Both the position numbers and the translations under genes were made by a program. Below the pieces are notes generated by a model. It had not been told where the DNA came from, did not search any database, and saw only the letters and a list, made by a program, of their open reading frames with translations. Positions 36,842-63,245 of a DNA stretch of 64,000 nt are shown here, piece by piece. The DNA is from Quadrisphaera sp. RL12-1S (GTDB taxonomy: Bacteria > Actinomycetota > Actinomycetes > Actinomycetales > Quadrisphaeraceae): assembly GCF_014270065.1 (NCBI RefSeq), contig NZ_JACNME010000001.1, positions 1-64,000 of the forward strand. Reading direction: 5' to 3'. Every line of letters starts with the position of its first letter. Positions within the stretch are counted from its first letter, which is position 1.

Positions 36842-37059
36842 TGACCGAGGTCACCTGCAGATGCGAAGGCCCAGCCCCCCAGCCCCACCGCGACCGACCG
36901 AGGTCACTCGCAGACGCGAAGCCCCAGCACCACCCCACCGCAACTGACCGAGGTCACCTGCGGACGCACAGGCCCAGCCAGCCCACACGTCCGCGACCGA
37001 CCGAGGTCACTCGCAGACGCGAAGCCCCAGCACCACCCCACCGCAACTGACCGAGGTCA
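36842..37059. repeat. Array 1 of the TGACC-N2-GGTCA repeat, five copies
   Basis: Cores at 36842, 36895, 36945, 36998 and 37048 (TGACC or CGACC, then GA, then GGTCA). Spacing alternates 53, 50, 53, 50 bp, giving a 103-bp higher-order unit; 36895-36978 and 36998-37081 are almost identical. Conserved text after the core reads CCTGCGGACGCA or CTCGCAGACGCG. No protein explains it. Confidence 0.85.
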
Positions 37060-37127
37060 CCTGCGGACGCACGGCGGACCCGGCGAACCCGGCGGAAGGC
37101 CCGGGCTCGCCGCGTGCGCGGTCTCCC

Positions 37128-38117
37128 TCAGGCGGCCTCGCCCAGCAGCTGGTCCCGCAGCGACGCCACGACCGCCCCGCGCGAGACGGTGTCGGCCCAG
37201 GTGAATCGGACGACGCAGAACCCGAGGCCGGTGACCGCGTTCTGGCGGCGCCGGTCCCAGATGAAGGCGTCCTCGAGCTCGTCGTCGAGGTCGGGGTGGT
37301 AGCGGCGCCCGTCCGCCTCACCCAGCAGCGGCAGCCTGCGCAGCGGTCCCGGCGGCAGGGGGACGCCCAGCGCCTGGTGGAGCTGGTCCCAGTCGAAGGA
37401 GAAGTCCGCCCGTGCGACCAGCTCCCCGTGACGGCCGAGCACCACGCGCTGCAGCTCGACCGGGAACACTCCGCGGTCCACGCACCTCCACCTGACCCTG
37501 CTCTCCAGCGGAGATGCGGCGCGGCCGTCGGCCATGGCCCAGACGCGCGCGGTGATCGGATGGCCGGCGAAGCGCTCGGCGGTCGCGTGCGCCGCGACGA
37601 GGTCGGAGTCCGAGGCCAGCCCGGTGTGCAGCGCCGAGTCGAGGACTGCGAGCCCGGTCATCGGGTCGAGCCGGGGCACGACGTCCGCCAGCGTCCGCCT
37701 CGGGCTGGTCACGAGCAGACCTCCCAGGTCGACCACGTCGTCCGGGCCGAGCACCGCCCGGTGCGGGACGAGGAGCTTCCGGGGCGCGGCCTTCGCCGAC
37801 CGCGTCACGTGCACGACCCCGGTCCGAGGGACGCCCTGCAGCCCCATCAGCACGGCGGCCGTGTGGTGCGACACGACGGATCCCGGCACCAGCAGGACAC
37901 CGCTGCGCCCCCACGACCGCTGGAGGTCGCTGCCCTCGCGGTCGGGCTCGACCAGGTACGTGCCGCGCTGCAGGCGCTTCCAGTCGCCGGCCGCCACGAG
38001 CATCCTCAGCAGCTGCTCCGGGACACCGCTGTCCAGCACCTGCTGTCGCGTCACGACGTCGTCCTGGGCGGCGGCCAGTGAGCGCAGTCTGCTCAGCGCC
38101 GCGGTCGGGTGGGTCAC
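37128..38117 (-). CDS. AbiEi-like winged-helix protein with DUF559-like C-terminal domain
   Basis: A 329-residue protein. Residues 1-80 look like the winged-helix region of AbiEi-type antitoxins (VTRQQVLDSGVPEQLLRMLV, then WKRLQRGTYLV). The middle has SHHTAAVLMGLQG and TSPRRTLADVVPRLD. The C-terminal 110 residues resemble a DUF559/Vsr-like nuclease fold (ESRVRWRCVDRGV, ADFSFDW, GEADGRRYH, RRQNAVTGLGFCVVRFTW). Such proteins are frequent and scattered in actinobacterial genomes. No AbiEii-type nucleotidyltransferase toxin is adjacent, so a toxin-antitoxin role is not supported. Start GTG 38117 lies 6 nt after GACGGT. Palindromic repeat arrays flank it on both sides. Confidence 0.75.
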   Translation of the reverse strand: MTHPTAALSRLRSLAAAQDDVVTRQQVLDSGVPEQLLRMLVAAGDWKRLQRGTYLVEPDREGSDLQRSWGRSGVLLVPGSVVSHHTAAVLMGLQGVPRTGVVHVTRSAKAAPRKLLVPHRAVLGPDDVVDLGGLLVTSPRRTLADVVPRLDPMTGLAVLDSALHTGLASDSDLVAAHATAERFAGHPITARVWAMADGRAASPLESRVRWRCVDRGVFPVELQRVVLGRHGELVARADFSFDWDQLHQALGVPLPPGPLRRLPLLGEADGRRYHPDLDDELEDAFIWDRRRQNAVTGLGFCVVRFTWADTVSRGAVVASLRDQLLGEAA

Positions 38118-38254
38118 GCGCCCACCGTCGTCCGCCGCCGCCCTCCCGCGCACCCCCCGCGGACCAGCTGTGGACCGCCCCCCTCTCGGCAGGCGCGGAT
38201 CCCTCCCTGTGGGCGCACGACGACGACGGCGAGCGCGGCGGGCGGCTTCGGAGC

Positions 38255-38359
38255 TGACCGCGGTCATCCCCGGGACTGACCGAGGTCACCTGCGAGGGCC
38301 GCTCCTGCGCCGACGCGTCCGCACCTGACCGCGGTCACCCCCGGGACTGACCGAGGTCA
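38255..38359. repeat. Array 2 of the TGACC-N2-GGTCA repeat, four copies
   Basis: Cores at 38255 (perfect palindrome TGACCGCGGTCA), 38277, 38326 (TGACCGCGGTCA again) and 38348. Spacing is 22, 49, 22 bp, so a 71-bp unit is tandemly duplicated. Confidence 0.85.
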
Positions 38360-38373
38360 CCTGCGGGGGGGCA

Positions 38374-38461
38374 CCGCCCGACCAGCCGCCCGACCGGCCG
38401 CCCGACCGGCCGCCCGACCGGCCGCCCGACCAGCCGCCCGCCCGACCGACCGACCGGCCGC
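38374..38461. repeat. 12-bp minisatellite downstream of the ROK gene
   Basis: About seven imperfect copies of CCGCCCGACCGG between array 2 and the ROK stop codon. Probably expanded by slippage. Not part of a supported gene. Confidence 0.8.
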
Positions 38462-38486
38462 CGTGCCGGGTCGGCGAGCGGGCGTC

Positions 38487-39785
38487 TCAGTGCTCCAGCA
38501 GCAGGGTCGCCGACCGGGGGCTGAAGGCGTCCTCCAGCACCAGGCAGCCCGCGCCGACGGCGGCCACGTCCGCGCCGACCAGCGTCCCGCGGACCTCCAC
38601 CGGGTGGATCTCCCGCGCCACGGCGCCGGACTGCACCAGCGGCGGCACCACCCGCAGGAACGTCCGCTCCAGCCGCGACCACAGCGGCCCGCCGAACACC
38701 ACCTGCTCCACGTCGAGCATGTCCACGAGGTCGGTGGCGGCCTTCGCCATGCGGCGGGCGAGGTCCTCCAGCAGCGCCGACGCCTCCGGGTGACCGGCGT
38801 CGGCCAGAGCGCACACCTCGGCGAACGCCGACGCCACCGACGCCCGGTGCTCCGCCACCTCCGCCGTCGGCCGGCCCGCCAGGTCGTCACCGGAGTCGAG
38901 GTCCCACCGGCCCACGCCGAGCCGCTCGGCCTCCCGCACCAGGTGCAGCGGGCCGCTCGACTCCCCCAGGCAGCCGGCGAGCCCGCACGGGCACTCGGCG
39001 CCGCCGCGGCCGGTGACGAGGTGCCCGACCTCCCCGGCGTTGCCGGACGCGCCGCGGTACACCTCGCCGCGCAGCACCAGCCCGGTGCCGACGCCCGTGC
39101 CCAGGTAGAAGAAGACCGCGCTGCCGGTGCCGGTCACGCCACCGGACCACACCTCCCCCACCGCGGCCGCCACGACGTCCTTGTCGAGCACCACCGGCAG
39201 GCCCGTGGCCTGCGAGAGCAGGTCCCGCACGTCCACCCGGTCCCACCCCGGCAGGTTGGGCGGGTGCACCACGGCGCCCGCGGCGCTGTCCACCGGGCCG
39301 GGCGCCGCGACGCCCAGCCCCACGATGCGCTCCCGGTCGACGCCGGAGTCGGCGACGACGGCGTCGACGTCCCGCGCGACGTCGGCGAGCACCTGCCCGG
39401 GCCCGGCCCCGGGCCGCAGCGGGTGGTCCCGACGCGCCACCACGTGGCCCAGCAGGTCGAGGACGACGACGGTGACCACGGCCGGGTCGAGGTGCACGCC
39501 GATGGCGTACCGCCCCTGCGGCACCAGGCGCAGCAGCGTGCGGGGCTTGCCCGGGCCGCCGCCCTGCTTGCCCGCCTCCTCGACGAGGCCGTCGTCGAGG
39601 AGGCGCCGGCAGATGTTGGAGACCGTCTGCGCCGACAGGCCCGTCAGCACCGCCACCTCGACGCGGCTCAGGCCCGTGGCGTGGCGCCGGATCGCCTCGA
39701 GCACGACCACCTGGTTGTAGTCACCCACGCGGGGGAGGTTGGAGCCCCGACGCACACCCGTCGTCGTCGTCCTGGTCGGCGCCAC
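38487..39785 (-). CDS. ROK-family transcriptional regulator
   Basis: A 432-residue protein: an N-terminal MarR-like winged helix (YNQVVVLEAIRRHATGLSRVEVA, then LSAQTVSNICRRLLDDGLV) followed by a ROK sugar-kinase fold with GVHLDP, LGVAAPGPVD, LGTGVGTGLVL, GNAGEVGHL and the zinc motif CPCGLAGCLG. ROK repressors sense sugars or sugar phosphates. Its position upstream of the mannoside operon, same strand, makes it the likely regulator, perhaps through the inverted repeats at 36496-36520. The GTG start lies 6 nt after GACCCT, suggesting a leaderless mRNA; an internal start near 39755 is possible. Confidence 0.9.
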   Translation of the reverse strand: MAPTRTTTTGVRRGSNLPRVGDYNQVVVLEAIRRHATGLSRVEVAVLTGLSAQTVSNICRRLLDDGLVEEAGKQGGGPGKPRTLLRLVPQGRYAIGVHLDPAVVTVVVLDLLGHVVARRDHPLRPGAGPGQVLADVARDVDAVVADSGVDRERIVGLGVAAPGPVDSAAGAVVHPPNLPGWDRVDVRDLLSQATGLPVVLDKDVVAAAVGEVWSGGVTGTGSAVFFYLGTGVGTGLVLRGEVYRGASGNAGEVGHLVTGRGGAECPCGLAGCLGESSGPLHLVREAERLGVGRWDLDSGDDLAGRPTAEVAEHRASVASAFAEVCALADAGHPEASALLEDLARRMAKAATDLVDMLDVEQVVFGGPLWSRLERTFLRVVPPLVQSGAVAREIHPVEVRGTLVGADVAAVGAGCLVLEDAFSPRSATLLLEH

Positions 39786-39923
39786 CCGGCCAGGGTCGCA
39801 CGCCGGGCGCGCCGCTGGTCACGGCGCTGCCGCGATCCGCTGCCGTGGTCACCTGACCGCTCGCGCCCCACGAGCCGCGCCGAAGTCCAGCGCACCGGCC
39901 CGCTCCGCCGTACCGTCGAGGGC

Positions 39924-40595: not shown

Positions 40596-40701
40596 CTCCC
40601 ACCGAGCTCCGAGGCACCCGCCCGGGTGTCGACGTTGCTCCGTGTGGACAGGACCGCCACGCTGGGTTCCCGACGGCGTGCACGACAGCGAGGTGGACAG
40701 C

Positions 40702-41148: not shown

Positions 41149-41212
41149 CGCCGGGCTGAGGCTTCAGCGCGTTCTCAGCCTCGACGGCGCCCCCGCGACC
41201 TACCCTCGGCAG

Positions 41213-42445: not shown

Positions 42446-42477
42446 CGCTCCCCCGGCGGGCCGGCAGGGGTACGGAA

Positions 42478-42520
42478 CCGGCGGGCCGCGGCCCAGAGGG
42501 GGTGGACCGCGACCCGCCGG
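42478..42520. terminator. Terminator between LCP and GT39 genes
   Basis: A 14-bp stem with one C-A mismatch (42478-42491 with 42507-42520) between convergent genes. Confidence 0.7.
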
Positions 42521-42538
42521 GGTCTGTGGGGCCGGGGG

Positions 42539-50865: not shown

Positions 50866-50872
50866 CGTCCCG

Positions 50873-51631: not shown

Positions 51632-52084
51632 ATGACCACCCTCACCGACACCCCGCACAGCGAGCAGCTGGCAGAACCCGGCCAGCGCGGCTCCCTCCAG
51701 GTCTCCGAGCGCGTGGTGGTCGCCATCGCCCGCGCCGCCGCCATGGAGGTCACCGGGGTGGCCACCCCCACCCAGAACAAGAGCGCCTCCAAGGCCGCCG
51801 GTGGCGTCAGCGGCATCACCAGCCAGATCGGCGACCAGCTCACCTCCGCGGTGGGACGCACCCTGCCCCGGGCCTCCGCCCAGGTCGCCGGCGACCGCGC
51901 CCGCCTCAGCGTCGAGATCGCCCTGCTGTGGCCCCACTCCGCAGCCACCGTCGCCGCCGCCGTGCGCGAGCACGTCGCCGCGCGCCTGCGCGAGTACGCC
52001 GCCACCACCACCGACACCGTCGCCGTCACCATCTCCACCGTCGTGCGCGACCAGCGCACCACCACCACCAGGAGGGTCCAGTGA
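51632..52084 (+). CDS. Asp23/Gls24 family protein, second copy
   Basis: A 150-residue Asp23 protein (GSLQVSERVVVAIARAAAMEVTGVATP, then DRARLSVEIALLWPHSAATVAAAVREHVAARL, TTDTVAVTISTVV). It lacks the acidic tail of the first copy and has WPHS in place of EYGVS. ATG with GAGG upstream. Its stop overlaps the next start by 4 bp (GTGA). Confidence 0.85.
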   Translation: MTTLTDTPHSEQLAEPGQRGSLQVSERVVVAIARAAAMEVTGVATPTQNKSASKAAGGVSGITSQIGDQLTSAVGRTLPRASAQVAGDRARLSVEIALLWPHSAATVAAAVREHVAARLREYAATTTDTVAVTISTVVRDQRTTTTRRVQ

Positions 52085-52701
52085 GCACCCCCACCCAGAC
52101 CCGCCAGCAGACCAGTCAGACCAGTCAGGCCAGTCAGAACGGTCAGGCCGGTCGGTCCGGCGCCCCGCTGCGCCCGGCTCCCCTGCCCACCGGCGCCGGC
52201 CGCATCGGCTGGCTCGGGCCCCTGCTGGCCGTCCTGCTCATCGCCGTCGCCGTGCTGCTGGGCCAGGACGCCTGGGTCCGCCTCAACGGCGCCCAGAGCT
52301 CCTGGCTCGGATCGGTCATCTCCGCCCTGAACGGCCTGGCCCCCTCTGCGGCCCTGGCCGTGCCCGCCGCCATCGCCATCATCATCGGCCTGCTGCTGCT
52401 GGGCGCGGCCTTCTCCCGCCGCAAGCGCAAGGCCCTGGTCCTGCGCGGAGACCTCGGCGCCCACCTGACCACCCGCGACGTGGCCCGCCTGGCCTCCGGC
52501 GCCGCCCGCCAGGTCGACGGGGTCCTGGACGCCTCCGCCTCGGCCACCCGCCGCAAGGTCACCGTCGAGGTCACCACCACCGGTGATGGCGCCACCCGCA
52601 CCGCCGTGCAGACCGACGTCCAGCGGGCCCTGTCGGCCCTGGCCGACGCCCCCAAGGTCACCATCAACGCCACCACCGCCGACAAGGAGGCGAGCCGATG
52701 A
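52081..52701 (+). CDS. DUF6286-type membrane protein of the Asp23 operon
   Basis: A 206-residue protein: a polar Gln/Ser/Thr-rich N-terminus (about 1-45), two membrane helices (about 45-63 and 95-117), then a soluble domain (VLRGDLGAHLTTRDVARLASGAA, KVTVEVTTTGD, VQTDVQRALSAL). The GTG start overlaps the upstream stop and its stop overlaps the next ATG, so it is translationally coupled on both sides. The family name is recalled from similar operons; function unknown. Confidence 0.7.
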   Translation: MSTPTQTRQQTSQTSQASQNGQAGRSGAPLRPAPLPTGAGRIGWLGPLLAVLLIAVAVLLGQDAWVRLNGAQSSWLGSVISALNGLAPSAALAVPAAIAIIIGLLLLGAAFSRRKRKALVLRGDLGAHLTTRDVARLASGAARQVDGVLDASASATRRKVTVEVTTTGDGATRTAVQTDVQRALSALADAPKVTINATTADKEASR

Positions 52702-53288
52702 GCCGCAAGACCGCAGGCTTTGACCGCCTGGCCGTCTTCGTCCTCGGCCTGGTCCTGCTCGCCGGTGGCGCCCTCGTGGGCGCCTGGGCCCTGGACCTGC
52801 TGCCCCAGCTCGGCGTGCCCGCCTCCGCGGTCCCCCAGAAGATCTCCACCGCCGGCGCCACCGACCTCACCGGGGCCTCGTGGTGGGCCTACGCCACCGC
52901 CGCCGCCGCCGTCGTGCTGGGCCTGCTGGGCCTGTGGTGGCTGCTGGCCCACATCCCCCACCGCGGCGCCGACCCGGTGCGCCTCCCGGGTTCTTCGGCG
53001 GCGGGGACCCTGGTCCTGGACGGGGACGCCGCCGTGGCGGTGGCCGCCCAGGTCATCTCCGAGGTGCCCGGGGTGCGCTCGGCCAGCGGGAAGATGGTCT
53101 CCGAGCGCGGTCAGCTGATCGCCGAGCTGGACGTGGTCGCTGACCCCGAGGTGGACCTGGTCGCCCTGGACCACGCCATGGTCGCCGCCAGCGCGGACCT
53201 GAACACCGTCCTGTCCCGCGCGGACGTGCGCGGACGGGTGCACGTGGCCATCGCCCGCCGCTCCAAGGGCCTGACCCGCGTCGCCTGA
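52698..53288 (+). CDS. amaP: AmaP-like Asp23 membrane anchor
   Basis: A 196-residue protein with two N-terminal membrane helices (about 10-30 and 63-85) and a cytoplasmic domain (LVLDGDAAVAVAAQVISEVPGVRSASGKM, GQLIAELDVVADPEVDLVAL, ADVRGRVHVAIAR) that resembles an Asp23 fold. In Staphylococcus AmaP holds Asp23 at the membrane. It overlaps the upstream gene by 4 bp and ends the operon just before an 18-bp terminator. Confidence 0.75.
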   Translation: MSRKTAGFDRLAVFVLGLVLLAGGALVGAWALDLLPQLGVPASAVPQKISTAGATDLTGASWWAYATAAAAVVLGLLGLWWLLAHIPHRGADPVRLPGSSAAGTLVLDGDAAVAVAAQVISEVPGVRSASGKMVSERGQLIAELDVVADPEVDLVALDHAMVAASADLNTVLSRADVRGRVHVAIARRSKGLTRVA

Positions 53289-53310
53289 CACCACCGTCAC
53301 GACAACACCC

Positions 53311-53349
53311 AGGTGAGAGCCCCGCACGCCCCGCGTGCGGGGCTCTCAC
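53311..53349. terminator. Terminator of the Asp23 operon
   Basis: A perfect 18-bp stem (53311-53328 with 53332-53349) with a 3-nt loop, between convergent genes ending at 53288 and 53366. Confidence 0.9.
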
Positions 53350-53365
53350 CGTCCCCGGACGGGGG

Positions 53366-54805
53366 TCAGGGCTCGTAGGTCTGGATCCGCCCTGCGTCCC
53401 GACGCGTCAGCTCAGCCAGGCGCGGGCGGAGCTCGGCGAGCACGGCCGGCACGTCGACGGTGAGGAGCCGCCGGTCGCGCACCACCACCCGGCCGTCCAC
53501 CACCACGTGCCTGACGTCGCCGGGGCGCGCGGCGTGCACGAGCGTCGCCGCGAGGTCGTGCACGGGCTGGAGGTGGGGCGCGGACAGGTCCAGCAGCGCC
53601 ACGTCCGCCCGGTGGCCGGGAGCCAGCCGCCCCACCGCGCCGCGCGCCGAGCCCGGGTCGGCCAGGTGCAGCGCCTGCGCGCTCTGGGTGGTGGCGTGGT
53701 GCAGCACCTGCCGGCTCGTCATCCAGCGGGGGTCGGCCTCGCCGCCCAGCGACTTCTGCACCAGCGACGTGACCTCCAGGCTGGCCCACAGGTCGAGGTC
53801 GCCGTTGCTCGCCGCGCCGTCGGTGGCCATCCCCACCGGGACCCCCGCCCCCCGCAGCGCCCTGATGGGCGTCGTCCCGTGCGCGGACTTGAGGTAGAAC
53901 CGCGGGCTCGACGCCACCCCCACCAGGCCGCGCTCCGCGGCGCGCGCGAGCAGGGGCAGGTCGGTCTCGACCACGCCGGTGGCGTGCGCCACGAGCAGCG
54001 GCACGTCGAGGAGCCCGGTGCGGTCCAGCACCTGCACCGGGGTCACCCCCGAGCGCTCGAGGCTGGCGCGGGTCTGCTCGGCGGTCTCCGCGGCGTGCAG
54101 GTGCACCGGCAGGTCGTGCTCGCGCGCCAGGACCGCGAACGCCGCGAGGTCCGGCTCGCTCACCGTGTAGGGCGCGTGGGGCGCGAGCCGCGTGGTCACC
54201 CGGCCGCCCGCCGCCCCGCGCTGCCGCAGGGCGAAGTCGAGGCCGCGCTCACGGCCGGCCTCCCCGTCGGAGGAGAAGCTGGCCCAGCCGAGGTCAGCCC
54301 GGGCGCCGCTCACCTCGACCGCACGGGCGACGGCGTACATGTGGAAGTAGTGGTCGGCGAACGTCGTCGTCCCGCCGAGCAGCATCTCCGCGCAGGCGAG
54401 CAGGGCGCCCAGCTCCACGTCGCGCTCGGTGAGGTTGGACTCCATCGGCCAGATGCGCTCGTTGAACCAGGTGTGGACGTCGACGTCCTCGGCGGCTCCC
54501 CGGAACAGCACCATCGCCGCGTGCGTGTGGCAGTTCACCAGGCCGGGGACGGCGAGGAACCCGCGCCCGTCGAGCACCTCCGCCGGTGGCGGGGCGCCCT
54601 GGTGCTCCGACCGCTCGCGGGCGGGACCGACGCGCGTGATGAGACCGCCGCTGACCTCGACGTCGACGTCCTCGGCGAAGCCGATGCCGTCCGGGCCCTC
54701 GTCACCCCCGACGCCGTGCACGAGCGCGGTGCAGCCCTCGACCCGCAGGTCGACGCGCTGGGCCGTCGCGTCGTGCGGGCTCGCGTCAGGCGGGGACTGG
54801 TCCAC
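53366..54805 (-). CDS. Amidohydrolase, MTA/SAH deaminase-like
   Basis: A 479-residue TIM-barrel amidohydrolase. Metal ligands are visible: PGLVNCHTHAAM (HxH), HLHAAET (third His), VAHATGV (His) and GMATDGAASNGDLDLW (Asp). TTTFADHYF and RLAPHAPYTVS complete the ATZ/TRZ-like deaminase pattern, so it probably deaminates a nucleoside or aminoheterocycle such as 5'-methylthioadenosine or S-adenosylhomocysteine; the exact substrate cannot be told. GTG 54805 is chosen because the longer frame to 54847 starts inside the palindromic repeat. CAGAGT lies 6 nt before it. Confidence 0.85.
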   Translation of the reverse strand: MDQSPPDASPHDATAQRVDLRVEGCTALVHGVGGDEGPDGIGFAEDVDVEVSGGLITRVGPARERSEHQGAPPPAEVLDGRGFLAVPGLVNCHTHAAMVLFRGAAEDVDVHTWFNERIWPMESNLTERDVELGALLACAEMLLGGTTTFADHYFHMYAVARAVEVSGARADLGWASFSSDGEAGRERGLDFALRQRGAAGGRVTTRLAPHAPYTVSEPDLAAFAVLAREHDLPVHLHAAETAEQTRASLERSGVTPVQVLDRTGLLDVPLLVAHATGVVETDLPLLARAAERGLVGVASSPRFYLKSAHGTTPIRALRGAGVPVGMATDGAASNGDLDLWASLEVTSLVQKSLGGEADPRWMTSRQVLHHATTQSAQALHLADPGSARGAVGRLAPGHRADVALLDLSAPHLQPVHDLAATLVHAARPGDVRHVVVDGRVVVRDRRLLTVDVPAVLAELRPRLAELTRRDAGRIQTYEP

Positions 54806-54834
54806 GCCTGCACTCTGCCAGCGGCCCGCGGAGC

Positions 54835-54918
54835 TGACCTCGGTCACCTCCGCGGCTGACCGAGGTCACCTGCGGACGCGTCGGCCCAGCACCGATGCGC
54901 CGGAACTGACCGAGGTCA
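54835..54918. repeat. Array 3 of the TGACC-N2-GGTCA repeat, three copies
   Basis: Cores at 54835 (TGACCTCGGTCA), 54857 and 54907, spaced 22 and 50 bp, in the intergenic region between the amidohydrolase start and purK end. The tail CCTGCGGACGCG matches array 1. Confidence 0.85.
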
Positions 54919-54948
54919 CCTGCGGTGGAGGCCCGCACGACCCCGGGG

Positions 54949-55003
54949 TGCGCACAACGCCCATGATCACGGCGGGGTGTGCGCAGAACGCCCATGATCA
55001 CGG
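54949..55003. repeat. 24-bp direct repeat containing CCCATGATCACGG
   Basis: Two copies (54949-54972 and 54980-55003) differ at one base and start 31 bp apart, just before the purK stop codon. A related CATGATCGTGG sequence forms an inverted repeat at 59926-59986. Confidence 0.7.
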
Positions 55004-55012
55004 GGCGGAGGG

Positions 55013-56299
55013 TCAGCCGTCGACGGTGCCGGTGATGTAGTCGGCGGCGTGAGCGGCGCGGGCGCGGACGGCGTCGAGGTCGTCGCCCCAGGCGGTGACG
55101 TGCCCGATCTTGCGGCCCGGCCGCACCGACTTGCCGTACAGGTGCACCTTGACGGCGGGGTCGCGCGCCATGACGTGCAGGTGGGAGTGGAAGAGGTCGG
55201 GGTAGTCACCGCCGAGGGCGTTGACCATCACCGTCCAGCGGGCGCGCGGCTCGGTGGAGCCCAGCGGCAGGTCCAGCACGGCGCGCAGGTGCTGCTCGAA
55301 CTGGGAGGTCACCGAGCCCTCGATGGTCCAGTGACCGCTGTTGTGCGGCCGCATCGCCAGCTCGTTGACGAGGAACCTCGACGAGCCGTGCGCGCCGCCA
55401 CCGTCGGTGACGGGCACCTCGAACCCCTCGACGGCCATGACGCCCGTGACGCCCAGCTCCCCGGCCAGGCGCAGCGCCAGCGCCGTCGCCTGGGCTGACA
55501 GGTCGTCGTCGAGGTCCGGCGCCGGGGCGATGACCTCGCGGCAGACGCCGCCCACCTGGACGGTCTCCACCACGGGCCAGGCCGCCGCCTGCCCCGAGGG
55601 CGAGCGGGCCACCATCACGGCCACCTCGCGGGTGAAGCGCACGGCCTCCTCGGCCAGCAGCGGCTCCCCCGCCGCGCGCTCCAGCCAGGCGGCGGCCTCC
55701 TCGAGCGAGGACACCACGAGGACGCCCTTGCCGTCGTAGCCCCCGCGGGGGGTCTTCAGCACCAGCGGCCACCCGGCGCGCTCGCCGAAGGCGCGCAGGT
55801 CGTCCGCCGAGCGGACCTCCGCCCACGCCGGCCCGGCCACGCCCATGGCGTCGAGTCGGCGCCGCAGCAGCAGCTTGTCCTGGGCGTGCTCGAGCGCCTC
55901 CGGGCCCGGCCGGACGGCGACGCCCTCGGCCACGAGCGCGCGCAGGTGCTCGGTGGGGACCTGCTCGTGGTCCAGGGTGAGCGCGGCGGCGCCCTCGGCC
56001 AGGCGGCGCAGGGCGGCGAGGTCGTCGGGGCTGCCGAGCTGCACGTCGGGCACCACCTGCGCGGCCGACTCGGCGGCGTCGGTGGCGAGCACCCGCAGCC
56101 GGGCGCCGAGCCCCACCGCGGGCGGCACGGTCATCCGGGCGAGCTGGCCCGCACCGACCACGGCGACCACGGGGAAGGTGGTCTCGGTGGCCCCCGCGGT
56201 GCCGTCGCGCGCGTCGCGCGCGTCGTCGGCTCCGCCGGGTGCGCCAGCGGGCGACCCGGCGGGGGTGTCAGCGGAGGTGGCGTCGGGCGTGGCGGTCAC
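55013..56299 (-). CDS. purK: N5-carboxyaminoimidazole ribonucleotide synthase
   Basis: A 428-residue ATP-grasp enzyme making N5-CAIR from AIR, bicarbonate and ATP. The N-terminal Rossmann part has VVGAGQLARM. The ATP-grasp body shows PLVLKTPRGGYDGKGV, VNELAMRPHNSGHWTIEGS (Glu/Asn metal site) and LDLPLGS. The first 40 residues before the Rossmann fold are Ala/Gly/Asp-rich and not conserved. GTG 56299 has TACCCT 8 nt upstream. It is divergent from gtrA as in other actinobacteria, but its usual downstream neighbour purE is 6 kb further on. Confidence 0.93.
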   Translation of the reverse strand: MTATPDATSADTPAGSPAGAPGGADDARDARDGTAGATETTFPVVAVVGAGQLARMTVPPAVGLGARLRVLATDAAESAAQVVPDVQLGSPDDLAALRRLAEGAAALTLDHEQVPTEHLRALVAEGVAVRPGPEALEHAQDKLLLRRRLDAMGVAGPAWAEVRSADDLRAFGERAGWPLVLKTPRGGYDGKGVLVVSSLEEAAAWLERAAGEPLLAEEAVRFTREVAVMVARSPSGQAAAWPVVETVQVGGVCREVIAPAPDLDDDLSAQATALALRLAGELGVTGVMAVEGFEVPVTDGGGAHGSSRFLVNELAMRPHNSGHWTIEGSVTSQFEQHLRAVLDLPLGSTEPRARWTVMVNALGGDYPDLFHSHLHVMARDPAVKVHLYGKSVRPGRKIGHVTAWGDDLDAVRARAAHAADYITGTVDG

Positions 56300-56307
56300 G
56301 GCCCCCG

Positions 56308-56313
56308 AGGGTA
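56308..56313 (-). promoter_or_regulatory. -10 element of purK
   Basis: TACCCT on the minus strand, 8 nt before GTG 56299, consistent with a leaderless or near-leaderless mRNA. Confidence 0.45.
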
Positions 56314-56374
56314 GGGGGTGCCTCGCGACTCCACCGCAGGCGCCGCACGGGCGCCCCGGCGTCCGCGCGACGCC

Positions 56375-56380
56375 TACGGT
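56375..56380 (+). promoter_or_regulatory. -10 element of the GtrA gene
   Basis: TACGGT, exactly 6 nt before GTG 56387. The overlapping GGAGG could instead be a ribosome site, so the two readings compete. Confidence 0.4.
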
Positions 56381-56386
56381 GGAGGC

Positions 56387-56896
56387 GTGCAGGTCCTCGC
56401 CAGCTCCCGCGCCCTCGCGGGCCGCCTCTGGCGCTCGCACGGCCGCGAGCTCGGGGCGTTCGGCGTAGTGGGCGGCCTCGCGTTCGTCGTCGACGTCGGC
56501 CTGTTCAACCTGCTGCGCTTCGGCGGCAGCGGCCTGCTCGCCGACCAGCCCCTCACGGCCAAGGTGGTGTCGGCGTCGGTCGCCACGGTGGTCGCGTGGG
56601 CCGGCAACCGGTGGTGGACGTTCCGGCACCGCAACCGGCCCGCTGCCCTGCGGGAGCTGGGCCTGTTCGTGCTGATGAACGCCGCCGCCCTGCTCATCGG
56701 CCTGGCGGTGCTCGCCACCAGCCACTACGTGCTGGACCTGCGCGGGCCGCTCGCCGACAACACCGCCAACCTCGTGGGCATCGCCCTGGGCACCGCGTTC
56801 CGGTACGTCGCCTACCGGCTCTGGGTGTTCCGCCGTCCCCGTGCCGCCGGTGGGGACGGGCGGTCCAGCTCGGACCGGAGCACCGTCCGGGCCTGA
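56387..56896 (+). CDS. GtrA-family membrane protein
   Basis: A 169-residue protein with four membrane helices (about 20-40, 55-75, 85-105 and 120-140) and the GtrA signatures FGVVGGLAFVVDVGLFNLL, KVVSASVATVVAWAGNRWWTFRHR and NLVGIALGTAFRYVAYRLWVF. GtrA proteins help flip or handle undecaprenyl-phosphate sugars for envelope glycosylation. Divergent from purK with about 90 bp between starts. Start GTG 56387 follows from the -10 position. Confidence 0.88.
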   Translation: MQVLASSRALAGRLWRSHGRELGAFGVVGGLAFVVDVGLFNLLRFGGSGLLADQPLTAKVVSASVATVVAWAGNRWWTFRHRNRPAALRELGLFVLMNAAALLIGLAVLATSHYVLDLRGPLADNTANLVGIALGTAFRYVAYRLWVFRRPRAAGGDGRSSSDRSTVRA

Positions 56897-56919
56897 GGAC
56901 CGTCCGCACCCGAGCACCG

Positions 56920-58188
56920 TCAGGGCCGCGAGGGGGCGGCCCGCAGGAACACCGCGAAGGTCGCCGGGCGCATCCGCGCCAGCTCCAGCCGACCGCCCTC
57001 GGCGGTGACGAGGTCCCGGGCCAGCGGCAGGCCGAGCCCCGTGCCCGACGCCCCGCTCACGGCCCGCTCGAAGACGCGCCCGCCCAGCTCGGGCGGGACC
57101 CCCGGCCCGGAGTCGCTCACCTCGAGCACCACCCACTCCCCGCCGCGCTCGCTGCTGGCGCGCACGCGGACCCGGGTGGTGCCGTCGCCGTGCACGAGGC
57201 TGTTCTCCAGCAGCACCGCCAGCGCCTGGGCGAGCGGTCCGGCGCCGGCCACCACCCGGGTGGTCGGCGAGAGCGGCTCCACCACCAGCTCGCGGCGGGC
57301 GCGCTCGAACGCGGGTCGCCACTCGGCGCGCTGCTGCTCCAGCACCCCTGCCAGCACCAGCGGCTCACGGGGCGCGCTGGCCTGCAGGCGGGCGCGGGCG
57401 AGGAGGTCGTCGACCACCCCTGACAGGCGCTCGACCTGCTCCAGGGCCACCTGCGCCTCGGTGGCGACGGCGGGCTCGCTGGTGGTGGCGAGCACCTCCT
57501 CCAGCCGCATGGACAGCGCGGTGAGGGGCGTGCGCAGCTGGTGGCTGGCGTCGGAGGCGAACTGGCGCTCCACGGCCAGCCGCGCCTGCAGCTGGGCGGC
57601 GCTGCGCACAAGGGCCTGTGCCACCGAGTCGACCTCCTCCACGCCGCTGGGCGGCGGGGTGGTGGGCACCTGGCCGGACCCGAGGCGCTCGGCGCGCTCG
57701 GCGAGGTCCTCCAGGGGGCGCACCAGGCGGCGGCCCTGCACGAGGCCGACGGCGGAGCCGGCCGCCACCGCGCCGGCGGCCAGGCCCACCACGAGCACCA
57801 CCAGCTGGGCGTCCGCGGCCCACAGGCTGCTGCGCGCGGCGGTGACGGTGACCGCGAGGCCGTCGGCGGTGCCGGCGTGACCCACCACGGTGGAGCCGGT
57901 GGTGTCGGGTCCGGCCCTGACGGTGCTGCCGTCGGGAAGGTCCACCACCACGCTGGCCGGCCAGCGCCCGTCGCTGCGGGCGCTGCGCTCCAGCACCTGC
58001 GGGTCCACGCGGCCGCCGGTGGCCAGCCGGCTGCTCGCGGCGGCGAGCACGGCGTCGGCGCGCACCTGCACGCTGGTCCGCGCCTGCTCCGTCTGCAGCA
58101 CGAGCCCGGCCACGCACAGGGGCAGGCCGAGCAGGAGGACGGCGAGGACGACGGCGGCCATGGTGGCCGCCTGCACGCGGCGGTGCAC
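56920..58188 (-). CDS. Sensor histidine kinase of a two-component pair
   Basis: A 422-residue membrane kinase. TM1 is about 10-32, the extracellular sensor 33-120, TM2 about 126-148, then HAMP (RRLVRPLEDLAERAERL). The H box FASDASHQLRTPLTAL has His near 215, the N box LLENSLVHGDG, G1 DSGPGVPPE and G2 GTGLGLPLARDL. It follows the response regulator by 15 bp on the same strand, so the two form an operon. Signal unknown. Confidence 0.92.
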   Translation of the reverse strand: MHRRVQAATMAAVVLAVLLLGLPLCVAGLVLQTEQARTSVQVRADAVLAAASSRLATGGRVDPQVLERSARSDGRWPASVVVDLPDGSTVRAGPDTTGSTVVGHAGTADGLAVTVTAARSSLWAADAQLVVLVVGLAAGAVAAGSAVGLVQGRRLVRPLEDLAERAERLGSGQVPTTPPPSGVEEVDSVAQALVRSAAQLQARLAVERQFASDASHQLRTPLTALSMRLEEVLATTSEPAVATEAQVALEQVERLSGVVDDLLARARLQASAPREPLVLAGVLEQQRAEWRPAFERARRELVVEPLSPTTRVVAGAGPLAQALAVLLENSLVHGDGTTRVRVRASSERGGEWVVLEVSDSGPGVPPELGGRVFERAVSGASGTGLGLPLARDLVTAEGGRLELARMRPATFAVFLRAAPSRP

Positions 58189-58203
58189 CCGCTGACCCCG
58201 CCG

Positions 58204-58926
58204 TCAGTCGCGCTCGAAGCGGAAGCCGACGCCGCGCACGGTGGTGATGTACTGCGGGTCGCCCGCCTCGTCGCCGAGCTTCCTGCGCAGCCAGGAGACG
58301 TGCATGTCGAGGGTCTTGCTGGAGCCGAACCACTCCAGCCCCCAGACCTCCTCCATGAGGACCTGCCGGGGCACCACGGTGCCGACCTCGCGCAGCAGGA
58401 CGCGCATGAGCTCGTACTCCTTGGCGGCCAGGACGAGCGGCACCTCCTGCCCGGGCTCCAGGGGGCGGCCGTCGTCGTCGACGTCGCCCTCCCTGGCCAC
58501 CTTCCACGCCTTGCGGGCCGTCGGGTCCAGACGGACCCCGCGCCCGTGCAGCTGCAGGGCGGTGACGTCCCCGCGGCGCAGGAGGGCGCGGGCGCGGGCC
58601 AGGAGCTCGGCCACCCGGAAGGGCTTGGAGACGTAGTCGTCGGCGCCGGCGTCCAGGCCCACCACCAGGTCGACCTCGTCGGAGCGGGCGGTGAGCACGA
58701 GGATCGGCACGGCCACCCCGTCGGCGCGGATGCGGCGGGCCACGTCGAGCCCGTCCATGTCCGGCAGGCCCAGGTCGAGCACGACGAGGTCGAGCTGGCG
58801 CCGCGCCGAGGCCAGGGCGCCGGCGCCGTCGCTCTGGACGTCGACCTCGTACCCCTCCCGCTTGAGCGCGCGGGCCAGCGGCTCGGAGATGGCCGTGTCG
58901 TCCTCGACCAGCAGCACGCGCTTCAC
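58204..58926 (-). CDS. OmpR/PhoB-type response regulator
   Basis: A 240-residue regulator: receiver domain (VLLVEDDTAIS, phospho-Asp near 51 in VVLDLGLPDMDG, LTARS, YVSKPF) and a winged-helix DNA-binding domain (AAKEYELMRVLLREVG, SSKTLDMHVSWLRRKLGD, YITTVRGVGFRF). A longer linker around residue 130-160 is acidic. GTG 58926 lies 7 nt after TACCCT, so the mRNA is probably leaderless. First gene of the pair with the kinase at 58188. Confidence 0.94.
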   Translation of the reverse strand: MKRVLLVEDDTAISEPLARALKREGYEVDVQSDGAGALASARRQLDLVVLDLGLPDMDGLDVARRIRADGVAVPILVLTARSDEVDLVVGLDAGADDYVSKPFRVAELLARARALLRRGDVTALQLHGRGVRLDPTARKAWKVAREGDVDDDGRPLEPGQEVPLVLAAKEYELMRVLLREVGTVVPRQVLMEEVWGLEWFGSSKTLDMHVSWLRRKLGDEAGDPQYITTVRGVGFRFERD

Positions 58927-58933
58927 GGACGCC

Positions 58934-58939
58934 AGGGTA
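58934..58939 (-). promoter_or_regulatory. -10 element of the response-regulator operon
   Basis: TACCCT, 7 nt before the GTG start, with TCGACG about 16 nt further upstream as a possible -35. Confidence 0.5.
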
Positions 58940-58981
58940 TTGACAGGGCTGCGCGCGTCGAGCCGGCGAGCGGCGCCGGGG

Positions 58982-59863
58982 TCAGCGGACGTGGACGACG
59001 TCACCCGCCGAGACGGGCACCGGCCCCTCGTCCGCCGCGGCGCCCTCGCGCCGCACGAGCAGGCGCCCGTCGCCGTCCAGGCCCTCCGCGACACCGCGCA
59101 GCTGCGCCCCGCCGGGCAGGTGGACGACGACGTCGCGCCCGAGGGTCGTGCACGCCTCCGCGGCCCGCGCGGCCAGGCCGCTGGCCGCGGCGTCCCCGCC
59201 GGCGGCCTCGAAGCGGGCCAGCTCGGCGGTCAGCGCCCGGACGAGGGCCCGGACGAGCACGTCGCGGTCGGTGGAGGCCGCCCCCTCCAGGCGCAGGGAC
59301 GTCGCGCCCCCCAGCCCCCCGCCGTCGAGCTCCGCCCGCGTGGTGGTCGCGTTGACCCCCACGCCGACGACGACGCCGGCGGGCCCCGTTCCCGCGACCG
59401 CCCCGGGGAGGACCTCGACGAGGATCCCGCAGAGCTTGCGGCCCTCGACGAGCACGTCGTTGGGCCACTTCACCTGCGCCGGCAGCCCCGCGAGGTCGCG
59501 GACCACGCCCACCACGGCCACGCCCGCGAGCAGCGGGAGCCACCCCCACGCCTCCACGGGCGCCTGGGGGCGCACCAGCAGCGACAGCGCCACCCCGGAC
59601 CGGGGCGGCGCCTCCCACTGCCGTCCCAGCCGGCCTCGCCCACGGGTCTGGGAGTCGGTGGTGAGCACCGACGGCGCGGGCCAGGCCCCGGGGTCGGCCG
59701 CGGCGCGGGCCAGCAGCTCGGCGTTGGTCGACCCGACCTGCCCCACCACCTCCAGGCGCGCCAGCGGGCCGCCGGGCGCCAGCAGGGCCCGGCCCAGCGC
59801 CTCTGCGGACAGCGGCGGTCGGTCGAGGTCGCTCCAGCGTCCCGGGGTGCTCACGGGCTCCAT
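58982..59863 (-). CDS. birA: Biotin-[acetyl-CoA-carboxylase] ligase
   Basis: A 293-residue biotin protein ligase without the DNA-binding domain of E. coli BirA. Motifs: VGSTNAELLARAA, TDSQTRGRGRLGRQW (biotinyl-AMP loop), VKWPNDVLVEGRKLCGILVE, VVGVGVNATTT and the C-terminal SH3-like part (GVAEGLDGDGRLLVRR). ATG 59863 gives a normal length; the frame to 59929 begins in an inverted repeat. It lies near the biotin-dependent AccD gene, its likely pathway partner through the biotinylated AccA-type subunit (not in the window). Confidence 0.93.
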   Translation of the reverse strand: MEPVSTPGRWSDLDRPPLSAEALGRALLAPGGPLARLEVVGQVGSTNAELLARAAADPGAWPAPSVLTTDSQTRGRGRLGRQWEAPPRSGVALSLLVRPQAPVEAWGWLPLLAGVAVVGVVRDLAGLPAQVKWPNDVLVEGRKLCGILVEVLPGAVAGTGPAGVVVGVGVNATTTRAELDGGGLGGATSLRLEGAASTDRDVLVRALVRALTAELARFEAAGGDAAASGLAARAAEACTTLGRDVVVHLPGGAQLRGVAEGLDGDGRLLVRREGAAADEGPVPVSAGDVVHVR

Positions 59864-59925
59864 CCTCACCGGGGCTCGGGCGCCGGGCGCAGCGGCGCCG
59901 CCCCGGGCCGTGGTGGCGCCCAGAC

Positions 59926-59986
59926 GCATGATCGTGGGCGGGGACGGGAGCGGCGGCCGCCCACCCCACTCCCGCCACGATCATGC
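59926..59986. repeat. Inverted repeat between birA and the SMP-30 gene
   Basis: GCATGATCGTGG (59926-59937) and its exact complement (59975-59986), 37 nt apart, in the divergent intergenic region. Related to the CATGATCACGG direct repeat at 54949. Possible regulator-binding sites or a small intergenic repeat element. Confidence 0.6.
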
Positions 59987-60040
59987 GGCTCCGCGCCAGC
60001 TGCACCGCACCGCCGCTGCGCGGTCGTCGGCGTCCTCGCC

Positions 60041-60046
60041 TAGCGT
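60041..60046 (+). promoter_or_regulatory. -10 element of the SMP-30 gene
   Basis: TAGCGT exactly 6 nt before GTG 60053; probable leaderless transcript. Confidence 0.45.
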
Positions 60047-60052
60047 CGAGGG

Positions 60053-60979
60053 GTGCCCACCGCCGCGCAGCTGACCGAGCCGATCGCCGAGCACGGGGAG
60101 GGGCCGGTCTGGGACGCCGACGGCGGCCGCCTGCTCGCCGTGGACCTCGAGCGGGGCGACCTGCTGGCCGTCTCCACCGGCGGGGAGGTGTCGACGCACC
60201 ACGTGGCCGACGCGCTGGCCTGCGTGAGGCCCCGCCGCGAGGGCGGCTGGGTGGTGGCGGCCCGGCGCCGGTTCGCGCTGGTCGACAGCGTCACCGACCT
60301 GCTCGCCGGCCGCGAGGAGCCCCGCATGCTCCCGCCGTTGTGGGACGACGCGGAGCTGCGGTTCAACGAGGGCGGGTGCGACCCGCAGGGCCGGTTCTTC
60401 TGCGGGTCGATGGCCTACGGCGACGGCGGCAAGGGCGGCGAGCCGGTCGGGGTGCTGTGGCGGCTCGACCCTGACGGCAGCGCCCGCCCGGTGCTCGACG
60501 GGCTGACCATCCCCAACGGCCTGGCGTGGAGCCCCGACGGGCAGCGGGCGTACCACGTCGACTCGCCCTCGGGGGAGATCAGCCTGCTCCACGTGGCGCC
60601 CGACACCGGTGAGGTGCTGGACCGGGAGCCCTGGGTGCGGCTGGCCGACGTGCTCGGCGCAGACCCCGGCGGCGTGCCGGACGGCCTCGTCGTCGACGCC
60701 GAGGGCGGCGTGTGGGTGGCCGTCAACGGCGCGGGGGCCGTGGTGCGCCTGGACGCCGGCGGCGGGCTGAGCGAGCGCGTGGACGTCGGCGTCCCCGGCG
60801 TCACCGCGTGCACCCTCGGCGGCACCGGCGAGGGGGACGACGGCACGCGCGGCGGCGCGGTGCTCTACGTGACCACCTCCACGCAGGGGGTCGACCTGGA
60901 CGCCCACCCGGCCTCGGGCTCGGTGTTCAGCCTGCCGGTGGAGGTGGCCGCCCTGCCGCCCCTGCGCTACGACGGCTGA
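60053..60979 (+). CDS. SMP-30/gluconolactonase-family hydrolase
   Basis: A 308-residue six-bladed beta-propeller. Metal-site residues of the family are visible: EHGEGPVWDADGG (Glu), FNEGGCDPQGRFFCGSM (Asn), IPNGLAWSPDGQRAYHVDS (Asn) and PDGLVVDAEGGVWVAV (Asp). Members hydrolyse sugar lactones such as gluconolactone; the substrate here is not defined by neighbours. It ends 33 bp before AccD, which has its own -10, so co-transcription is possible but not required. Confidence 0.88.
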   Translation: MPTAAQLTEPIAEHGEGPVWDADGGRLLAVDLERGDLLAVSTGGEVSTHHVADALACVRPRREGGWVVAARRRFALVDSVTDLLAGREEPRMLPPLWDDAELRFNEGGCDPQGRFFCGSMAYGDGGKGGEPVGVLWRLDPDGSARPVLDGLTIPNGLAWSPDGQRAYHVDSPSGEISLLHVAPDTGEVLDREPWVRLADVLGADPGGVPDGLVVDAEGGVWVAVNGAGAVVRLDAGGGLSERVDVGVPGVTACTLGGTGEGDDGTRGGAVLYVTTSTQGVDLDAHPASGSVFSLPVEVAALPPLRYDG

Positions 60980-61000
60980 GGCGGTCGCGCGCGACCTGGC

Positions 61001-61006
61001 TACCCT
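61001..61006 (+). promoter_or_regulatory. -10 element of the AccD gene
   Basis: TACCCT exactly 6 nt before GTG 61013, the same arrangement as the LCP gene. Confidence 0.5.
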
Positions 61007-61012
61007 CGCGGG

Positions 61013-62650
61013 GTGACTGTGACTCGCGGGAGCGACGGCGGACCCACCACCTCCACCGGACCGGACCTGACGACCACCGCGGGCAAGCTGGAGGACGCCC
61101 GCGCCCGCCGCGAGGCGACCCTGGCCCCGGGCTCGGCGCGGGCCGTGGAGCGCCAGCACGCCAAGGGCAAGCGCACCGCCCGCGAGCGCCTGGAGGCGCT
61201 GCTCGACGAGGACAGCTTCGTGGAGGTGGGCGCCCACACCCGCGCGCTGTTCGGGGACCCGGCGGCCGGGCGCACCGAGCGCCCCCCGACGGACGGCGTG
61301 GTGGCCGGCCACGGCACGGTGGACGGGCGCCCCGTCGTCGTCTACTCCCAGGACTTCACCGTCTCCGGCGGGTCGCTCGGGGAGGTGCACGCCTCGAAGA
61401 TCGTCAAGGTGATGGACCACGCGCTGCGCGTGGGCTGCCCCGTCATCGGCATCAACGACTCCGGCGGCGCCCGCATCCAGGAGGGCGTCTCCTCCCTCGC
61501 CGGGTACGGCGACATCTTCCTGCGCAACGTGCGCGGCTCCGGCGTGGTCCCCCAGGTCTCGCTGATCATGGGGCCGTGCGCCGGTGGCGCCGTCTACTCC
61601 CCCGCCATCACCGACGCGGTGGTCATGGTCGAGGCGACCTCGCACATGTTCGTCACCGGGCCGGACGTCATCCGCACCGTCACCGGTGAGGACGTCGCCA
61701 TGGAGGAGCTGGGCGGGGCGCACACGCACAACGCCGTCTCGGGCGTCGCGCACCACATGGCGCCGTCGGAGGACGACGCCATCACGTGGGTCAAGGACTG
61801 GCTGGCGCACCTGCCCAGCAACAACCTGTCCGAGCCGCCGGTGCTGGCGCCGCTGGACGACACCGACCCGCTGCTGGTCACCGACGCGGACCTCGAGCTG
61901 GACGCGCTCGTGCCCGACTCCGCCAACGTCCCCTACGACGTCCACGAGGTCATCGCGCACGTCCTGGACGACGGCGAGCTGCTCGAGGTCCAGGACCTGT
62001 TCGCGCCCAACGTGGTCATCGGGTTCGGGCGCGTGGAGGGGCACTCCGTCGGCGTCGTCGCCAACCAGCCCGCCCGGCTGGCGGGCACGCTCGACATCGA
62101 CGCCTCCGAGAAGGCCGCGCGGTTCGTGAGGCTGTGCGACGCGTTCGGCATCCCGGTCATCACGCTGGTGGACACCCCCGGGTTCCTGCCGGGCACCGAG
62201 CAGGAGTGGAACGGCATCATCCGCCGCGGCGCCAAGCTGCTGTACGCCTACGCCGAGGCCACCGTCCCCAAGATCACCGTGATCACGCGCAAGGCGTTCG
62301 GCGGGGCGTACATCGTCATGGGGTCCAAGCACCTCGGCGCCGACGTCAACCTGGCCTGGCCGACGGCGCAGATCGCGGTGATGGGCGCGCAGGGCGCGGT
62401 GGAGATCGTGCACCGCCGCACGCTGTCGGCCGCCGCCGAGCAGGGCCACGACGTCGCCTCCGTGCGCGCCGGGCTGGTGCAGGAGTACGAGGAGCGCCTC
62501 GCCACGCCGTACGTGGCCGCCGAGCGCGGCTACGTCGACGACGTCATCGAGCCCTCCCAGACCCGCGCGCACGTGGTGCGGGCGCTGCGCGCGCTGCGCA
62601 CCAAGCGCGAGCAGCTGCCCGCCAAGAAGCACGGGAACATCCCGCTGTGA
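61013..62650 (+). CDS. Acyl-CoA carboxylase beta subunit (carboxyltransferase)
   Basis: A 545-residue carboxyltransferase of the acetyl/propionyl-CoA carboxylase type (AccD/PccB). Features: [112 protein letters not shown] and [13 protein letters not shown], covering both oxyanion-hole regions. It works with a biotinylated alpha subunit, not in this window, and with the small epsilon subunit that overlaps it by 4 bp. Product: malonyl- or methylmalonyl-CoA for fatty-acid or propionate metabolism. Confidence 0.96.
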
Positions 62651-62886
62651 GCGTGTCCGGCACCTCGGGCCCCTCCGAGGACGACGTCGTCAAGGTCGTC
62701 GCCGGAGGGCCGACCGAGGAGGAGGTCGTGGCGCTGGTCGCGGCGCTCGCCGCCGCGGCGTCGGTGCGCGGCGGAGCGGTGGAGCCCGACCCGGGCCCGG
62801 ACCTGTGGGCTGACAAGCCCACCCTCCTGCGCGTGCCCCCCGCCCCGGGCCCCGGCGCGTGGCGCGCCGCCGCCTGGCGCCGCTGA
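62647..62886 (+). CDS. Acyl-CoA carboxylase epsilon subunit
   Basis: A 79-residue protein with the AccE/PccE pattern: [21 protein letters not shown] near the start, DLWADK in the middle and a Trp/Arg-rich end ([10 protein letters not shown]). GTG overlaps the AccD stop (GTGA). Such subunits raise the activity of the actinobacterial acyl-CoA carboxylase complex. Confidence 0.88.
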
Positions 62887-62983
62887 CGCCGCCCGACGCC
62901 GCCCGGGCCCTGGCACCTGGCCGCGGCTGACGCGGCTGGGCCTGGCACCTGGCTCGCGGCTGGTCGCCACACCCGCCTGCAGG
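62887..62983. other. Non-coding stretch before array 4
   Basis: A short imperfect direct repeat of a CTGGCACCTGG-containing sequence is present; no gene or terminator is clear. Confidence 0.35.
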
Positions 62984-63245
62984 TGACCGAGGTCAGTCGC
63001 GGACGCACCCCCGCACGAACGACGCACCCCCGCACCTGACCCCGGTCAGCTGCGGACGCACCGCCCCAGCAAGCACACACCGCACCTGACCGAGGTCACC
63101 CCCAGAAGTGACCGAGGTCAGTCGCGGACGCATTCCCGCACGAGCGACGCACCCCCGCACCTGACCCCGGTCACCTGCGGACGCACCGCCCCAGCAAGCA
63201 CACACCGCACCTGACCGAGGTCACCCCCAGAAGTGACCGAGGTCA
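62984..63245. repeat. Array 4 of the TGACC-N2-GGTCA repeat, seven copies
   Basis: Cores at 62984, 63037, 63087, 63109, 63162, 63212 and 63234; those at 63037 and 63162 read TGACCCCGGTCA. Spacing is 53, 50, 22, 53, 50, 22 bp, so a 125-bp unit is repeated twice almost exactly plus one core. This is the largest array. Confidence 0.9.

Follow-up and report, generated by a model that had tools for sequence, protein, structure and literature searches.

What are the short palindromes that recur in ordered groups between the genes of Quadrisphaera sp. RL12-1S? The genus belongs to the family Quadrisphaeraceae (PMC10408702). The window considered here is a stretch of 64,000 nucleotides (assembly GCF_014270065.1, contig NZ_JACNME010000001.1, positions 1–64,000 of the forward strand). 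It carries four arrays built on the core TGACC-N2-GGTCA. The original prediction, made from the letters of the window, offered three explanations: a mobile palindromic repeat moved by a transposase, a set of binding sites for an abundant protein, or a structured RNA. The arrays prove to be members of a genuine repeat family, strongly non-random, limited to one genus among the genomes searched and placed at gene 3' ends. The second explanation has the best support of the three: the core arms are conserved, the centre is free, substitutions show no strand bias and the same palindrome is a reported operator elsewhere. With a probability of roughly 0.6, the arrays are sequence-specific sites for a dimeric DNA-binding protein of the genus.

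Arrays, spacing register and abundance

Seventeen exact copies of TGACCNNGGTCA occur in the window, every one of them inside the four arrays; the mean over 100 dinucleotide shuffles was 0.10 copies, with a maximum of one. Two cores of the form CGACCGAGGTCA, at 36895 and 36998, begin with CGACC and so carry one mismatch, which brings the total to the 19 first counted (5+4+3+7). No strand is assigned to any array. Array 1 (36842–37059) has five cores, at 36842, 36895, 36945, 36998 and 37048, separated by 53, 50, 53 and 50 bp. Array 2 (38255–38359) has four, at 38255, 38277, 38326 and 38348, separated by 22, 49 and 22 bp; TGACCGCGGTCA is present at 38255 and again at 38326. Array 3 (54835–54918) has three, at 54835, 54857 and 54907, separated by 22 and 50 bp. 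Array 4 (62984–63245) has seven, at 62984, 63037, 63087, 63109, 63162, 63212 and 63234, separated by 53, 50, 22, 53, 50 and 22 bp. All distances within the four arrays fall into the predicted classes of 22, 49–50 and 53 bp. The tandem higher-order units follow from these distances: 103 bp (53+50) in array 1, 71 bp (22+49) in array 2 and 125 bp (53+50+22) in array 4. Outside the arrays the window contains seven one-mismatch matches to the core and many two-mismatch matches, so that a single degenerate match is meaningless by itself.

The spacing classes persist when the genus is surveyed. The survey covered 55 arrays with 225 cores in five genomes, an array being required to contain at least one spacing of the listed classes; clustering without this filter yields the same classes. 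Among 170 neighbour distances, 22 bp (70) and 50 bp (61) are the commonest, followed by 49 bp (11) and 53 bp (11), which together account for 153. The remainder comprises distances of 32–33 bp (7), 21 bp (3) and 35 bp (2) and five that occur once each; the classes at 32–33 and 35 bp, found elsewhere in the genus, go beyond what the window had suggested. The 22/50 register is common to all five genomes.

Two kinds of linker produce this register. Short linkers are 10 nt long, as at 54847–54856 in the window (+ strand, CCTCCGCGGC), where the cores lie 22 bp apart, and some are self-complementary (CCTCCGGAGG, GTCCCGGGAC, GTTCCGGAAC). The long linker is exemplified by the 38 nt at 54869–54906 (+ strand), whose midpoint (linker positions 17–22) reads CCCAGC, one base off CCNNGG. 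This motif stands exactly midway (offset 17) in 34 of 58 distinct 38-nt long linkers, the next best offset being 7. The middle two bases are CA or TG in 47 of the 58, which gives the long module a direction, and it is found in both orientations. The idea of two or three ancestral modules recombined in different orders was therefore essentially correct: a short module of 22 bp is combined with a long one of 49–53 bp that has CCNNGG at its midpoint. Linkers are also species-typical. Here the RL12-1S genome is designated G000 and the other five species of the genus G008–G012. CCTGCGG-like linkers characterize G000, G008, G009 and G010, and CCTGGCG is typical of G011, a genome in which 69 of 75 cores have GC at the centre.

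In the whole RL12-1S genome (4.62 Mb, 27 contigs) there are 89 exact cores, against one occurrence of the reversed pattern, which confirms the excess genome-wide. Exact cores number 37, 30, 51, 94 and 20 in the remaining five species of the genus (reversed control 2–4). Across seven genomes from three further genera within the family the count is 2–15 (control 0–3); the highest of these counts, 15 in a sister-genus genome, is background, since 14 of the 15 lie inside genes. Pairs of cores 22–52 bp apart number 40 in RL12-1S. Elsewhere in the class they were found in nine of 393 genomes, one or two in each and never at 22 or 49–53 bp. A pattern scan of a named genome collection returned at least 119 stretches. 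Among the matches examined, the only true relative was one labelled Streptomyces sp. NP160, which is identical to G010 at 8000 of 8000 bases. On these data the family is restricted to one genus among the genomes searched. Searches of the open-licence PMC literature for the 12-mers, for dispersed intergenic palindromes of actinobacteria and for repeats of Quadrisphaera found no account of it; a 12-mer reportedly appears in PMC10999552 and PMC11083024.

Position at gene ends and turnover between species

The arrays lie at the 3' ends of genes. Genes were called with a codon-statistics script written for the analysis. Orthologous arrays were tallied separately, both among the 44 arrays placed relative to genes and among the 55 of the survey, and one gap of RL12-1S contributes two arrays. 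The 44 comprise 23 in convergent, 18 in codirectional and three in divergent gaps. The baseline consists of 349 gaps of at least 150 bp in the same DNA, which was chosen for its arrays and whose array gaps are included; it comprises 41 convergent, 186 codirectional and 122 divergent gene pairs. Convergent gaps are thus in excess (23/44 vs 41/349, p 2.8e-9) and divergent gaps in deficit (3/44 vs 122/349, p 5.2e-5). RL12-1S alone gives the same picture, with 10 convergent, 10 codirectional and no divergent gaps among 20 (p 6.9e-5 and 3.5e-4, respectively). Each of its arrays so placed has at least one gene 3' end before it, and codirectional arrays lie closer to the upstream stop codon than to the next start in 15 of 18 cases. 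Exact array cores fall outside called genes in 190 of 192 instances. The prediction that no core lies within a gene stands for the window in that its arrays are located between called genes, but the first core of array 3 (54835–54846) overlaps a gene call at 53366–54847, whose script-placed start may be too early. In at least five of the 44 arrays (L135, L141, L202, L204 and L214) the TGA of a core is the stop codon of the adjacent called gene, as would result from any open frame entering a core.

The neighbouring genes have little in common. Array 3 separates the 3' end of a purK-like gene from the start of an amidohydrolase gene, and array 4 begins 98 bp past the gene for an acyl-CoA carboxylase epsilon subunit. 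Pfam searches with 38 flanking proteins (eight in the window, 30 elsewhere) revealed no shared function and no transposase family; five matched no family. Two arrays sit within apparent operons, aroK-aroB (L147) and cdd-deoA (L135), which disfavours an obligatory role in termination. A second dispersed repeat, CGCACAACGCCCATGATCACGG, occurs twice beside array 3 (54951–55003). The sequence GCCCATGATCACGG has 19 copies in the 835 kb of RL12-1S DNA examined (15 outside called genes) and is present in the DNA examined from each of the five sister species. Two species share a stretch with a lone core (GTGGCTAAACGTGACCTGGGTCACAC; L169 at 7189 and L259 at 12191). In each of them it lies upstream of an NlpC/P60 gene, which suggests a promoter or leader element of a separate kind.

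Copy number changes from species to species. Many arrays occupy orthologous positions, with 1–12 cores at one locus; many regions of the sister species were selected for resembling the window arrays or from lists of exact cores, which inflates presence at orthologous loci. Arrays corresponding to arrays 1 and 2 exist in G011; G008, G009, G010 and G012 lack them. Between arrays 1 and 2 lies an AbiEi-antitoxin-like gene (37128–38153, − strand; PF13338, E 2.4e-10), mentioned for context only, whose counterpart in G011 also comes with two arrays. The matching gap in the other four species is arrayless and measures 0.19–1.35 kb, against 1.7–1.9 kb here. At the position of array 3 there is one exact core in G010 and one one-mismatch core in G009. 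Three loci with 6, 12 and 4 cores in G011 have exactly one core each in G012, between flanks that are 86–94% identical. Collapse of an identical array during assembly of G012 (a draft of 290 contigs) is an unlikely cause of these single cores, because the sequences flanking them differ from those in G011.

Linker likeness depends on the species compared. Five orthologous arrays of RL12-1S and G009 have similar linkers (likeness 0.64–0.92). Seven orthologous pairs shared with G011, at 0.49–0.68, are little above a shuffled baseline of 0.43, with their cores unchanged. Unrelated arrays of RL12-1S and G011 give 0.50–0.60, and arrays within each genome 0.59–0.69. Six of the seven RL12-1S/G011 pairs are at or below the likeness of unrelated arrays or within 0.02 of it, the exception being L141, and these pairs are less alike in their linkers than are arrays within each genome. 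One orthologous pair with G008 (0.63) and one with G010 (0.57) likewise do not exceed non-orthologous likeness. Because orthologues of RL12-1S and G011 are mostly no closer than unrelated arrays, we read this as linkers that probably change in concert within lineages.

Conserved cores and a proposed binding protein

In 16 orthologous alignments, identical sites amount to 471 of 487 in the core arms, 1142 of 1447 in the linkers with 30-bp flanks and 68 of 96 in the central dinucleotide. Cores within arrays are exact in 192 cases and carry one mismatch in 33. At further positions predicted by the register, two or three mismatches were found in 5 of 491, against 7 of 1218 controls, so there is almost no tail of decaying cores. 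Among the 33 single mismatches, 22 affect the first or last base of the core (T1>C or A12>G). In codirectional arrays, read on the sense strand, these two substitutions occur six and five times, and this lack of strand preference is the pattern expected of a DNA site. Conservation of the arms while centre and linkers drift suggests recognition by a dimeric DNA-binding protein.

Published operators indicate that a dimeric regulator can recognise a site of this kind. The computed consensus for HcpR, a CRP/FNR-type regulator, in Desulfuromonas and Desulfotalea is the same 5-2-5 palindrome, ATTTGACCNNGGTCAAAT (PMC545781). A conserved site of Thermus thermophilus NsrR is CTTGACCNNGGTCATGG, supported by electrophoretic mobility-shift assays with fragments bearing or lacking it (PMC5748679). 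As given in these two reports, both share with the arrays the identical 12-bp palindrome and a free central dinucleotide. The literature matches appear to favour CRP/FNR- or NsrR-type recognition over the ribbon-helix-helix type considered first.

Current evidence is consistent with the following model. (i) A dimeric protein of the genus would read TGACC-N2-GGTCA sites joined by a 10-bp linker (22-bp register) or a 37–41-bp linker (49–53-bp register). (ii) The long linker often carries CCNNGG midway, so that CC-NN-GG elements would recur every 22–25 bp or so, a register in which bound dimers may cooperate. (iii) The arrays most likely act on DNA at the ends of transcription units, as a roadblock, as a boundary or in the handling of supercoils, as proposed for palindromic repeats of Escherichia coli discussed below. 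(iv) Arrays would grow and shrink in place, from one to 12 cores, through local duplication and deletion, and their linkers would homogenise within a lineage.

Several points weigh against recognition by a protein. The arrays were found by means of their cores, and the alignments are prone to match core with core, which makes the 97% identity of the arms too high. Core conservation could also stem in part from recent copying. The partner protein is postulated. HcpR and NsrR operators, in the reports cited above, are located in promoters and have flanks richer in A/T, whereas the arrays are at 3' ends with G/C flanks. An operator-like position upstream of regulated genes is not what is seen, none of the 20 RL12-1S arrays lying between divergent genes. 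As RNA of either strand, the RL12-1S arrays outdo their shuffles in all 40 folds (z −0.4 to −12.9), and the outer arms have at least 11 complementary bases in three of 70 short pairs (0.3 expected, p 0.002). G009, which lacks cores at the place that L135 occupies after cdd in RL12-1S, has there a hairpin with a 19-bp G/C stem and a 4-nt loop (L187 15801–15944; z −4.9). An RNA or cruciform role for hairpins at these gene ends is accordingly conceivable, yet it fails to account for arms that are fixed as sequence.

These last observations are the strength of the alternative that survives best, though it is unlikely: that the arrays form RNA hairpins at 3' ends, as bidirectional terminators or as structures that stabilize mRNA. 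Their 3'-end position and convergent bias agree with it, as does the folding described above, and in its favour two 22-bp pairs (L153 and L157) lie within perfect palindromes of more than 50 bp and a single G012 core (L264) inside a perfect palindrome of 36 bp. Covariation lends it no support, however. Once palindromic centres are set aside, 8 of 34 of the 22-bp pairs (8.1 expected) and none of 44 long pairs (6.5 expected) have complementary centres, and the two core-adjacent bases are under-complementary across the long linker (0.20 and 0.19, against 0.49 and 0.39 by chance). An apparent excess of complementary centres in the 22-bp pairs (38/64 vs 27.9) was rejected as a pairing signal, identical centres being in excess as well (35/64 vs 26.5). 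The unbiased substitutions and the arms fixed as sequence, not only as pairs, also oppose it, as do the arrays inside aroK-aroB and cdd-deoA. No T-tract terminator was detected in 52000–63999, the stretch scanned, which covers arrays 3 and 4 and leaves arrays 1 and 2 outside. Rfam returned a single chance-level match, to mir-1759 (E 0.78, under the gathering score), outside the arrays. The suggestion of a structured RNA is without covariation support and without an Rfam family, even though the arrays fold well.

Comparison with known repeat systems

Neutral tandem repeats that spread and slip without function form a rather improbable alternative to protein-binding sites. The mycobacterial interspersed repetitive units, or variable-number tandem repeats (MIRU/VNTR), are tandem units that lie between genes at conserved loci and vary in copy number. 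Copy-number differences between species, homogenised linkers within lineages and a long module in both directions would all be expected of such loci. Against this, the linkers decay and the cores hardly do so, and divergent gaps are avoided. The arrays also differ from MIRU/VNTR loci in that their units are made up of a fixed palindrome spaced in quantised steps of 22 and about 50 bp.

The closest parallel in layout is provided by repetitive extragenic palindromes (REPs), REP doublets forming hairpins (REPINs) and bacterial interspersed mosaic elements (BIMEs), for example E. coli BIME-2. BIME-like repeats are usually attributed to Y1 tyrosine transposases known as RAYTs, which move them as non-autonomous elements. 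Dispersed extragenic palindromes of this type, in modular arrays with two spacer lengths and variable copy number, lie between unidirectional or convergent genes, as the Quadrisphaera arrays do. Reports on REPs and BIMEs describe such a layout, and propose that DNA gyrase relieves supercoiling there at gene ends (PMC3733652, PMC2817692). The part of the original prediction that invoked a REP/BIME-like element moved by a transposase stands for layout and location but not for the transposase. PF01797 (E ≤ 0.001) was found in none of the six genus genomes, the same search being positive in five of 14 control genomes. GTAG, which (or else CGTC) tags one end of the palindrome in these elements, lies within 15 nt of two of 225 cores; CGTC is near 77 of 225, with only 10 of 75 in G011. 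The palindrome lacks compensatory changes, many arrays hold orthologous positions with 1–12 cores (a share inflated by the choice of regions) and the Pfam matches of the flanking proteins include no transposase. Membership in RAYT-moved REPs was rejected on the missing PF01797 and GTAG, and mobility of this kind is very unlikely. The arrays differ from REPs, BIMEs and REPINs in these respects and in their actinobacterial host, and their arms are kept as sequence. The verdict is a new repeat family, BIME-like but RAYT-free, that would work as BIMEs do and is not filed among their members. Overall, the first interpretation is supported in part.

Chromosome-domain markers bound by an organiser protein, as in the matS/MatP system, are an equally faint prospect. 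The consensus of matS is reportedly GTGACRNYGTCAC, and the arrays resemble it in being dispersed palindromes with TGAC..GTCA half-sites; spacing and centre differ. Contig C1 of RL12-1S is uneven, with five arrays in its first 101 kb and none in its last 638 kb. However, contig C2 (580 kb), which bears a dif-like site, has no exact core (chance 0.07 for 20 arrays), and in G011 neither C4, with a dif-like site, nor C5, with dnaA, has TGACCNNGGTCACC, the core with a CC flank. The dif-like sites (G000:C2:418409 and G011:C4:429671; one per genome in five searched) have two mismatches to an actinobacterial consensus. Sites of the terminus region were rejected on this absence of exact or CC-flanked cores from the dif-like contigs, where matS-like arrays would cluster. 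Crossover sites of a serine recombinase deserve almost no credence: ACC-NN-GGT is similar to invertase crossover sites, the central dinucleotide is free and copy number shifts in whole units, but 26-bp sites would overlap at 22-bp spacing and PF00239, present in the other four genomes, was not found in G012 (20 cores) or in G010 (51 cores), whose cores contradict the proposal.

The arrays may, tentatively, represent a new class of 3'-end element. They would be multi-site platforms with a fixed 22–25-bp register, on which a lineage-specific dimeric protein could spread or bridge, insulating or ending transcription units, and their sites would evolve in concert genome-wide. A BIME-like family in which no RAYT was found, and whose binding-site arms are conserved and register rigid, separates the explanation of such repeats as selfish mobile elements from their explanation as protein-binding sites at gene ends, and the latter becomes testable. 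Orthologous loci with one to 12 copies provide a natural copy-number series.

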